From positions 1 through 41,029 of the forward strand of contig JADFDP010000014.1 of the NCBI GenBank assembly GCA_018262835.1: a stretch of 41,029 nt of DNA, in the 5' to 3' direction. Origin of the DNA: Candidatus Aminicenantota bacterium (lineage in GTDB: Bacteria; Acidobacteriota; Aminicenantia; UBA2199). Every line of letters starts with the position of its first letter. The first letter of the stretch is position 1. The translations under genes and the position numbers were made by a program. This document shows positions 10,258 to 30,378 of this stretch, piece by piece. The notes below the pieces were generated by a model. The model made no database searches, was not told where the DNA came from, and was given only the letters and a program-made list of their open reading frames with translations.

Positions 10258-10280
10258 GGGCGGGAATACCCCGCCCCTAC
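10258..10280 (-). repeat. REP-like hairpin with GTAG foot, copy 1
   Basis: GGGCGGG (10258-10264) pairs with CCCGCCC (10270-10276) around a five-base loop, followed by CTAC, which is GTAG on the minus strand. It lies 22 bases beyond the purL stop and matches the element at 27931-27955. It may also act as a 3' end stabiliser for purL mRNA. Confidence 0.7.
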
Positions 10281-27920: not shown

Positions 27921-27930
27921 AAATCAAAAA

Positions 27931-27955
27931 GGGCGGAGGCAAGCCCCGCCCCTAC
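27931..27955 (-). repeat. REP-like hairpin with GTAG foot, copy 2
   Basis: GGGCGG pairs with CCGCCC around GAGGCAAGCC-type centre, followed by CTAC (GTAG on the minus strand). It begins ten bases after the aspartate kinase stop and may act as an mRNA 3' stabiliser. It shares its core with copy 1 (10258) and copy 4 (28967). Confidence 0.7.
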
Positions 27956-27997
27956 ATTTAAATACAATTGCTTGAAAATATAATTCAACTAAAAATT

Positions 27998-28510
27998 TTA
28001 TTTATTACCTGTTTTTATTAATTTAATTAGTTTTTTAAATAATGCATGTTTTTTTTCAATTCGCTTGAGTGTTGCAATTACTGCATCATACAAATTCATA
28101 AGATATTGTTCGTAATTTATGTCAAATTTTTCACAATAGAAACTTATAACTTTTGCATACTTTTTATGAAAACTACTGTCTCTGGATACAATCACAGGGT
28201 TTTTTACCATTTCAAATTGATCTGCGGTAATATCAATAATAATTCCATCATGTTCTAGCCAACGATGAAGTGCAAAAGGACCTTTTTCATCATCTATATG
28301 AGCATGTACTTCTAAAAGGGGTTCTAATTTATATTCATTAGTTAAATAAGCTCCCAAAATACTGCATATATGAGTACAACTTTCAACTGGAAATTTTTTC
28401 ATCCGAAGATTAGCTTCTCTGCCGACTTTTTTTTCAGAAAAGTCAGTTTTTTCAATTGCATATCTAAATTTTTGAGCAATTTTAAAAAGCTGAACTTCAT
28501 CTAACTTCAT
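27998..28510 (-). CDS. AT-rich gene of unknown function, possible Cys-His-Asp fold
   Basis: The 170-aa protein is lysine- and isoleucine-rich, and its gene is strikingly AT-rich beside GC-rich neighbours, so it was probably acquired. I do not recognise a named family. The pattern FPVESCTHICSIL (Cys45/Cys49), ALHRWLEHDGIIIDITADQF (His82, Asp93) fits the order Cys ... His-x-Trp ... Asp found in papain-like and transglutaminase-like folds, which include peptidases and deamidases. That is a suggestion from motif order only. There is no signal peptide. The ATG at 28510 overlaps the end of the transposase gene by 14 bases and has no clear Shine-Dalgarno sequence. It could be a passenger or a domesticated partner of the transposase. 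Confidence 0.65.
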   Translation of the reverse strand: MKLDEVQLFKIAQKFRYAIEKTDFSEKKVGREANLRMKKFPVESCTHICSILGAYLTNEYKLEPLLEVHAHIDDEKGPFALHRWLEHDGIIIDITADQFEMVKNPVIVSRDSSFHKKYAKVISFYCEKFDINYEQYLMNLYDAVIATLKRIEKKHALFKKLIKLIKTGNK

Positions 28511-29126
28511 TGTGGTGTTTTTTCTTTAATGTTGGGAGCCCTGTTCTTTGATCGTTTTCAATATTAATCGGATTGTCTTCGTCCTCGAACCATTTGGCTG
28601 GATTCTCCAGAATGTAGTGCCGGATCTGGTTTAACTCTTTTTCATCCCGAATGATGTGTTCATAGTAATTACGCTGCCAGATTTTCCATATTTCTTCATC
28701 ATTTTCTTTAAGGCAACATTTCATATATTCAACAACACATTTTGATTTGAAGGATCCGACAATTTGTCCCAATGTAGGGGCTCCCCTCGCGGGCGCCCCG
28801 CCTCTTTCGTTTCCAATCAAAATCCCATGAATATGGTTAGGCATGATAATAAAATCATCTACCGTGATGTGATTATATTTGATCGCAATATCCCGCCAAT
28901 TTTTTTCTATGATTTTTCCGACCTCGGTTAATTGAAAAATTGGAAATGAATCGGGGACAGATATCTGGGCAGGGGCAAGCCCTGCCCCTACGCCCGAATA
29001 AAATTCTGCAAAAATACATTCCCGGTTTCTTGAACAGATCGTTACGAAATAATATCCAACCTTCGAATAATCATATCCCTTTAGCCGAACCGATCTCCGA
29101 TGGAATCTCTCATGATTGAAGGTCAT
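28497..29126 (-). CDS. REP-associated tyrosine transposase (RAYT, IS200/Y1 type)
   Basis: The 209-aa single-domain HUH transposase has RSVRLKGYDYSKVGYYFVTI at the N-terminus, the metal-binding His-x-His in MPNHIHGIL (His98, His100) and the nucleophile tyrosine region WQRNYYEHIIRDEKE (Tyr154/155). RAYTs cut and join single-stranded REP hairpins that carry a GTAG foot and are usually not autonomous. Two REP-like hairpins lie inside this gene in frame, encoding GVGAGLAPAQ (45-54) and GGAPARGAPT (109-118), both in loops between conserved segments. The frame is intact. The ATG at 29126 has no good Shine-Dalgarno sequence, and another REP copy lies ten bases upstream. Confidence 0.9.
   Translation of the reverse strand: MTFNHERFHRRSVRLKGYDYSKVGYYFVTICSRNRECIFAEFYSGVGAGLAPAQISVPDSFPIFQLTEVGKIIEKNWRDIAIKYNHITVDDFIIMPNHIHGILIGNERGGAPARGAPTLGQIVGSFKSKCVVEYMKCCLKENDEEIWKIWQRNYYEHIIRDEKELNQIRHYILENPAKWFEDEDNPINIENDQRTGLPTLKKKHHNEVR
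28774..28802 (+). repeat. REP-like hairpin with GTAG foot, copy 3, inside RAYT
   Basis: GTAG (28774-28777) leads into GGGGC, a CG-rich centre and GCCCC. It closely matches copy 5 at 29136. It lies within the transposase coding region and is read in frame as a Gly/Ala/Pro-rich loop. Confidence 0.72.
28967..28991 (-). repeat. REP-like hairpin with GTAG foot, copy 4, inside RAYT
   Basis: GGGCAGGG pairs with CCCTGCCC around GCAAG, and CTAC (28988-28991) gives the GTAG foot on the minus strand. It is read in frame within the transposase as GVGAGLAPA. Confidence 0.75.
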
Positions 29127-29135
29127 TCGTCTTTT

Positions 29136-29161
29136 GTAGGGGCACCCCTTGCGGGCGCCCC
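29136..29161 (+). repeat. REP-like hairpin with GTAG foot, copy 5
   Basis: GTAG (29136-29139) is followed by GGGGC ... GCGCCCC. It lies between the RAYT start and the TPM-domain gene stop and differs from copy 3 at only a few positions. Confidence 0.72.
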
Positions 29162-29171
29162 TCAGCGGCAG

Positions 29172-29627
29172 TCACTCTTTATTGCCGAAATCAATACCGT
29201 CAGGAAGCTCGTTGACGTCCTTCTCGCCCTGGTAGGGAAAGTGAACGGCGAGCAGGCGGCCGCACTCATCAATGCCTCGCACCAGCCCCTCGTTGAACTT
29301 CCCTTCCTTGAAGTCGCCGGAAATAGCAACGACCAGTTTGTCCCAGAAATCCTGGCTAACTTTCCGGTGAATGCCCTCGTCGCCGATGATGGCAAAGGCG
29401 CGCCGGGAAGGGACAATGAAGAACAGGATGCCGTTGCGGTCTTTGGTGGTGCGCATGCCCAGGCGCGTGAAAGCTTTGTGGGCAGCGTGTTGGATATTGC
29501 CCCAGAAGAACCGTGAGACCGACACGCGTATTTCCCCGGAAGTCAGCTTCTCGGCCGCGACGATGGCCGCCTTGATCCGGTTGTCGTCAATGATCTCAAG
29601 CAGCTTTCGCTGGCTGATTAACGCCAT
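29172..29627 (-). CDS. TPM-domain protein, cytoplasmic-like
   Basis: The 151-aa protein has a TPM fold (TLP18.3/Psb32/MOLO-1): LTSGEIRVSVSRFFWGN, AHKAFTRLGMRTTKDRNGIL, FFIVPSRRAFAIIGDEGIH and a C-terminal AISGDFKEGKFNEGLVRGID. It lacks the signal peptide and membrane anchor of its neighbour. In this family the domain is thought to bind metals or act in protein repair, but the bacterial role is unclear. The ATG at 29627 follows AAGGAGG. It is the third gene after lemA and the longer TPM protein, with ten bases between genes. Confidence 0.85.
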   Translation of the reverse strand: MALISQRKLLEIIDDNRIKAAIVAAEKLTSGEIRVSVSRFFWGNIQHAAHKAFTRLGMRTTKDRNGILFFIVPSRRAFAIIGDEGIHRKVSQDFWDKLVVAISGDFKEGKFNEGLVRGIDECGRLLAVHFPYQGEKDVNELPDGIDFGNKE

Positions 29628-29637
29628 GGATCCCTCC

Positions 29638-30378
29638 TTACCACGAACCCGAGGCGCCACCGCCACCGGATCTGCCGCCACCCCCGGAAAATCCGCCCCG
29701 GCCTCCACCGCCGCGCCCGCCCGACAGGATGGTGAACAGCAGGTACAGGGCCAGGGAGGGATTGGTGATCAGCAGGATCAAAAATCCCAGTATGGCCATG
29801 CCGACGAGGATCTTTTGGAACCAGGTCAAGGGAGGTGATGCCGGCGGCGGCACCTGCCCGCCGCCGGTTGCGCCGCTGTCGCCGGAAATTACGGCGAGCA
29901 GGCGGTCGACCGCCGCGGCCACCGCCCCGTCGCTGTCACCCTGCTGCAGCCTGGGCACCATCTCATCGTTGATGATGCGCGAGGCGACGGCATCGGGGAC
30001 CTGGCCCTCCAACCCGTAACCGACTTCGATACGGACACGGTGGTCTTCGGCCATGACGAACATGACCAGACCGTCATCGAGGCCCTTGCGGCCGACCCGC
30101 CAAGACTCAAAAGCCTTGACGCCCCAATCTTCGATGGGGATGCCGCCAGTGGTTTTGCCGATGTAAACGACGACCTGGCGGCCGCTGGACTGTTCGTAGG
30201 CCTGCAGCCTGGCATCCAGCTGCTCCGCCACCTGCGGCGAGAGCATACCCGCCGCATCGGTGAGCCAGCGCTGCGGCGGGGCGGGGATGGGGGTCCCGGA
30301 CTGGGCCTGCACTCCCGCCGCCAAGGCAAGGAGTAGCAGGCCGGCCAGCGCCGTCGAAAAATAAATCCGCGATTTCAC
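29638..30378 (-). CDS. Membrane-anchored TPM-domain protein (YgcG family)
   Basis: The 246-aa protein has a signal peptide (about 1-25, ending VQAQ), a TPM domain (about 35-160: WLTDAAGMLSPQVAEQLDAR, GRQVVVYIGKTTGGIPIEDW, DDGLVMFVMAEDHRVRIEVG), a membrane segment (WFQKILVGMAILGFLILLI) and a Gly/Ser-rich tail with SGGGGRSGGGGASGSW. This is the usual partner of LemA and is placed on the outer face of the inner membrane. The start is GTG at 30378, three bases after the lemA stop. The initiator has no strong Shine-Dalgarno sequence, in keeping with coupling to lemA. Confidence 0.9.
   Translation of the reverse strand: MKSRIYFSTALAGLLLLALAAGVQAQSGTPIPAPPQRWLTDAAGMLSPQVAEQLDARLQAYEQSSGRQVVVYIGKTTGGIPIEDWGVKAFESWRVGRKGLDDGLVMFVMAEDHRVRIEVGYGLEGQVPDAVASRIINDEMVPRLQQGDSDGAVAAAVDRLLAVISGDSGATGGGQVPPPASPPLTWFQKILVGMAILGFLILLITNPSLALYLLFTILSGGRGGGGRGGFSGGGGRSGGGGASGSW

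Follow-up and report, generated by a model that had tools for sequence, protein, structure and literature searches.

A RAYT gene that appears to carry its own type of REP hairpin in frame, compared with homologues from many phyla

In-frame REPs within tnpA-REP genes, generally located between HuH and Y, are the hallmark of subclass 2.4 in the main text of Quentin et al. 2018 (PMC6006769), a subclass that corresponds to RAYT group 4 (Bertels et al. 2017). In-frame GTAG palindromes that are translated have also been described in unrelated genes, many of which are involved in DNA repair (PMC3733652), and the Rickettsia palindromic elements (Ogata et al., cited in PMC3733652) are likewise in-frame coding palindromes, with RPE-4 and RPE-6 listed among the CGTC-tagged repeats. 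In Pseudomonas and E. coli, RAYT-associated REPs form inverted pairs known as REPINs or BIMEs. TnpA-REP proteins other than the one studied here bind single-stranded GTAG-footed REPs strand-specifically and cut them at CT or CA (PMC8266576). The present comparison bears on whether RAYT enzymes continue to mobilize REPs and on the reason for which gene and substrate remain together; our search of the literature returned no later treatment of in-gene REPs.

Here, we analyzed a RAYT locus of Candidatus Aminicenantota bacterium; the window hereafter is the whole stretch of DNA analyzed, 41,029 nucleotides in length. The initial annotation had described five GTAG-footed hairpins in it, two of them in frame within the RAYT gene, and hairpin detection with a shuffle control located all five at the places given. 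Each starts with GTAGGGGC and has a stem of 7-9 bp with at most one mismatch. The gene had been assigned to positions 28497-29161, and the RAYT ORF indeed occupies most of this span (28497-29126); its start is at 29126, and the hairpin at 29136-29162 is a 5' flanking REP outside the gene. The features of the locus are as follows.

29172-29708: upstream neighbour gene
29136..29162, plus strand: type B REP on the 5' side, separated by 9 bases each from the RAYT start codon and from the upstream gene's stop
28497..29126, minus strand: RAYT / TnpA-REP gene, intact, 209 aa (ORF call; REP_Tyr_transpos match, AlphaFold pLDDT 82, Foldseek 4er8)
28967..28991, minus strand: internal REP at site 1 (before HUH), stem type A (GGGCAGGGCTTGCCCCTGCCC), foot on the coding strand, residues 46-54
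28774..28799, plus strand: site-2 internal REP, between HUH and helix alpha-C, stem type B (GGGCTCCCCTCGCGGGCGCCC), foot on the non-coding strand, residues 110-118
27998..28510, minus strand: ORF170, a 170-aa protein with no assigned family, within the REP-bounded block, overlapping the RAYT end by 14 bases
27929..27955, minus strand: type A-like REP on the 3' side, in the gap that separates ORF170 from the aspartate kinase gene's end
10258..10280, minus strand: solitary GTAG hairpin with a different stem (GGGCGGGGTATTCCCGCCC), distant from RAYT

Read along the gene strand, REPs of type B (opposite), A (coding, site 1), B (opposite, site 2), and A (coding) thus follow one another, the middle two within RAYT and the last after ORF170. 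The two flanking REPs (29136-29162 and 27929-27955) are oppositely oriented, and the gene is accordingly flanked by GTAG-footed REPs as in a REPtron. The 5' flanking REP differs from the site-2 REP at 2 bases, and the 3' flanking REP shows 3 mismatches to the site-1 REP. The internal REPs lie ~170 bases apart in opposite orientations, with the HUH-coding segment between them, and both are read as Gly/Ala/Pro loops, as had been claimed: VGAGLAPAQ (residues 46-54) at site 1 and GAPARGAPT (110-118) at site 2. Positions 27921-29170 contain 4 footed hairpins versus 0.005 expected (200 dinucleotide shuffles), and the whole window contains 13 GT[AG]G-footed hairpins versus 3.9 +/- 2.2 in dinucleotide shuffles. 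A chance origin of the hairpins is ruled out by the shuffles of the window and of the homologues and by the GTAGGG-anchored test described below.

The RAYT protein has the HUH motif NHIH at residues 97-100 (H98/H100), W150-Q151, and the catalytic Tyr in Y171..N175. All of these are invariant or nearly invariant in 73 aligned homologues, and the HxH and Tyr motifs are therefore intact and conserved, in agreement with the initial annotation. NCBIfam NF047646 (REP_Tyr_transpos) matches the protein with E 3.5e-17 and 62.6 bits, under the 80-bit cut-off, and with 69.2 bits once the loops are removed; for Pfam Y1_Tnp (cut-off, 23), the score is 15.6 bits intact and 24.9 without the loops. The practical effect is that RAYT genes with inserted loops are under-annotated, because the loops drop them below the thresholds of the family profiles. 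An AlphaFold model based on the 73 homologues (mean pLDDT 82, pTM 0.78) places the site-1 loop, modelled with low confidence at residues 44-62, between strands 40-43 and 63-66, and the site-2 loop (106-118) as coil between strand 98-105 and helix 119-138. A sequence search of the PDB with RAYT returned nothing useful, whereas the fold search succeeded: Foldseek matched the model to 4er8, the structure of E. coli TnpA-REP together with a REP hairpin, with an E-value of about 5e-7 (5.6e-7), and the fold also matches the ISDra2 and IS608 TnpA proteins. With its HUH motif, single catalytic Tyr, and Y1 fold, RAYT is a Y1 HUH transposase.

The motifs given for subclass 2.4 in the main text of Quentin et al. 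are NH[IFV]H, WQ, and YIxNNP; the window protein has NHIH and WQ, and its YILENP is one position off. That text places REPs generally between HuH and Y, and the window adds to this a second site, before HUH and between two strands. As a gene with in-frame REPs, the window RAYT belongs with the published in-gene-REP kind, and it is not the first of that kind, since the in-frame REPs of subclass 2.4 were already reported in 2018 (PMC6006769). The main text of that paper was not found to describe the pre-HUH site, counts of matches to a gene's own flanks, or the density contrast given below. The intragenic REPs of PMC3733652 resemble those of the window in being in-frame GTAG palindromes that are translated, but their hosts are unrelated genes, whereas here the REPs sit in the gene for the presumed REP-processing enzyme itself. 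The Rickettsia elements, although also in-frame coding palindromes, are not associated with their own transposase. Classical REPINs are extragenic, whereas the internal REPs of the window are intragenic with the HUH-coding segment between them.

The REP-bounded block differs from its surroundings in composition, with a GC content of 24-43% at ~27950-29130 versus 57-71% around it. In three related genomes (G002, G003, and G004), the upstream gene and the aspartate kinase gene are 277-381 bases apart, with neither RAYT nor ORF170 between them. In a fourth (G006), the same two neighbours are separated by 830 bases, in which other small ORFs occur and a double-foot REP immediately follows the upstream stop codon. 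The RAYT-ORF170 block was most likely gained in the lineage of the window, or else lost in the relatives, with gain favoured because of the drop in GC. At the G006 locus (L211), which lacks RAYT, the double-foot GTAG REP occupies bases 1958-1981 after the stop of the upstream gene and is followed by what has the appearance of a small toxin-antitoxin-like gene pair. Empty loci with the same two neighbours (L207 and L212) carry, at the same intergenic place, long inverted repeats of the ACGGCGTACGGC type, a different palindromic repeat. ORF170 had no family match and no homologue among 34 related genomes, and a role as a widespread RAYT partner is unsupported on this count. It is AT-rich, and its C45, H81, and D93 are among the residues in a weak match (E 0.2, far under the cut-off) to lasso-peptide B2, which is cysteine-peptidase-like.

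The initial annotation had named a lack of GTAG hairpin enrichment in the genome as a refutation, and the outcome was mixed. Enrichment was not seen in this genome, where pattern searches gave 23 matches versus 18 in the reversed control, i.e., the hairpins are not abundant, but it was seen in RAYT-rich genomes of the same genus. Across 16 genomes, RAYT matches and the REP/control ratio gave a Spearman coefficient of 0.95, the RAYT counts being match rows, to which some genes contribute two. The present genome (81% complete) has one RAYT, and pattern searches found the two stem types of the window in 2 and 3 copies, four of those five at the RAYT locus. A high-copy REP family was not found in this genome, the few copies sitting mostly at the locus and not dispersed; such near-confinement is as expected of a recent arrival. 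In two other genomes (G034 and G045), the internal REP belongs to the genome's own family, with dozens of matches.

The first scan of genomes, made with the intact protein, uncovered no relatives, whereas a loop-free alignment recovered them. The homologue set, taken from related genomes and from public genomes scanned with the loop-free profile, comprises 113 intact ORFs from many phyla. A footed hairpin lies between HUH and the conserved Trp in 88 of the 113 (codon-shuffle null, 1.75), mostly starting 8-20 residues past HUH. The coding strand alone bears it in 42 genes and the opposite strand in 16; another 26 have an opposite-orientation pair, i.e., a coding-strand REP followed by an opposite-strand REP within the gene, much like the inverted pairs of REPINs and BIMEs, 4 have other patterns, and 25 have none. 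Every internal foot is GTAG without exception, and unrelated repeats are thereby ruled out as the internal hairpins. When the word GTAGGG was used as an anchor with no hairpin required, it occurred in the HUH-Trp segment of 97 of the 113 genes, and an anchored hairpin was present at 150 of its 172 sites, versus 1-7% for control words. By the criterion of the initial annotation, close relatives encoding the same loops without palindromes would refute the embedding; in alignment, the nearest relatives have palindromes at the same two sites, and the embedding stands. In-frame REPs are thus the rule among relatives across many phyla and not unique to the window.

The REP before HUH is rarer, occurring in 7 genes of the set. 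The window gene and three others (L018, L126, and L128) fall within a five-gene set with 97% support and have this REP at the same site and in the same orientation, and the fifth gene (L129) has a pre-HUH hairpin with a GCAG foot. L018 carries opposite-orientation REPs at each of the two sites, whereas the window has one REP per site.

At the HUH-Trp loop, coding-strand feet were found in phase 0 (n = 50) and phase 1 (n = 24) and never in phase 2, which would give an in-frame TAG, and opposite-strand feet were found in all three phases. Because the same loop thus shows five combinations of orientation and codon phase, each with a different peptide, the internal REPs imply several independent insertions. 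A quick tree, rough and with many weak branches, required 12 phase changes when genes bearing a coding-strand REP were considered and 20 changes in the presence of any REP. No clean pair of near-identical genes that differ by the presence of an insert was found among the homologues; the closest near-pairs are L045 and L056 (84% identical core), which differ in REP number, and L052 versus L044, with a further insert in the REP.

In the 66 genes with both internal and flanking REPs, the similarity of internal stems was 0.74 to the gene's own flank and 0.26 to the flanks of other genes (best of 5000 permutations, 0.37), where a REP outside the core but still within the reading frame may count as a flank. 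The own flank was unbeaten by that of any other gene in 39 of the 66, and 15 of the 66 internal REPs were closer to the flanks of at least 10 other genes; a cognate match of internal and flanking REPs is, by this measure, the majority pattern and not a rule. For example, L045 and L056 have CACGGC...GCCGTG both inside and outside the gene, and in L044 and L063 one asymmetric pair is repeated upstream, inside, and downstream. Stems vary among genes while pairing is kept, and a variable column may take as many as four Watson-Crick types, mispairs being rare. Because this table was built from detected hairpins and leans to pairing, the GTAGGG-anchored test, unselected for hairpins, was added. These patterns suggest that the hairpins are renewed as DNA and not preserved as peptide.

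We consider it likely that the window protein is a TnpA-REP of the REPs-in-gene subclass, and that REPs of its own kind entered two exposed loops without introducing a stop, so that translation yields disordered Gly/Ala/Pro loops. The in-frame embedding of a RAYT's own REP type is supported by both the sequences and the structural model; the position, frame, intact active site, internal/flank stem match, stem covariation, and orientation/phase combinations were observed directly. Because single-stranded REP DNA is the enzyme's substrate, as judged from the binding and cleavage described in PMC8266576, the enzyme, or recombination among REP copies, may repeatedly insert or replace REPs within its own gene and nearby. 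Survivors would be limited to in-frame events at the two tolerant loops, and the embedded copies would travel along when the gene is transferred. Binding or cutting of the RAYT gene by its own enzyme is plausible, and these data do not distinguish selection for the hairpin from its turnover through fresh copies. More tentatively, the embedded REPs may be a maintained donor or seed copy on which the enzyme acts, making enzyme and substrate inseparable on transfer and letting internal and flanking stems change in concert; in the clade of the window, the HUH-coding segment lies between the two internal copies, which are oppositely oriented.

It is unlikely that REPs strike genes at random and that the loops of this protein merely survive as neutral insertions. 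The loops are predicted by AlphaFold to be exposed and disordered, in-frame REPs are known in unrelated genes (PMC3733652), and the main text of Quentin et al. (PMC6006769) suggests little effect on activity. However, REP density is 4.5/kb in the HUH-Trp segment, which is ~60-fold that of neighbouring ORFs (0.077/kb) and also above that of flanks outside ORFs (1.2/kb). Moreover, random strikes would not resemble the gene's own flanking REPs, and old neutral inserts would lose their pairing, whereas the observed stems keep it. The simple tolerated insertion offered by the initial annotation is thus too weak a description, because the sites are recurrent and cognate.

Still less probable is that the hairpins are selected as an autoregulatory device, with the enzyme or folded mRNA at the REPs limiting expression. 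Their fixed place in distant homologues and the REP just before the RAYT start codon would agree with such regulation, but standard pairs outnumber G-U pairs by 1265 to 48, which hints at DNA over RNA (the scoring itself preferred Watson-Crick pairs), and about one-fifth of the homologues have no detectable hairpin in the segment. A function of the Gly/Ala/Pro loop in the protein, with an incidental palindrome, is scarcely credible: the reading frame is never closed and short peptides rich in Gly/Ala/Pro do recur, but the five readings of the same hairpins give different peptides, loop-free homologues exist (L013, L014, and L015), and stem columns covary as base pairs.

Should the hairpins of its own gene be a substrate of the enzyme, such genes would be a natural record of recent insertions, and mobility could be tested directly in a simple assay with the single strand of the gene and the enzyme. 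To the published anecdote, our data add numbers for a recurrent insertion at one loop that is cognate to the flanks and spread over many phyla.

With regard to the REP ends, a fixed cleavage dinucleotide was not seen among the single-foot internal REPs, 45 of 99 of which have CT at the stem end. In REPs of all loci, inside and outside genes, GTAG is almost always preceded by a pyrimidine, which is preferred, or by G (A, 1-3%), suggesting that the foot may be longer. In addition, a further palindromic in-frame insert (peptide STNHPPT...) lies inside the REP at site 2 of L018 and in the HUH-W segment of L052, as if REP loops were targeted by another element. Finally, a C-terminal REP adds a GAGL-type tail to the RAYT of L019, L016, and L067.
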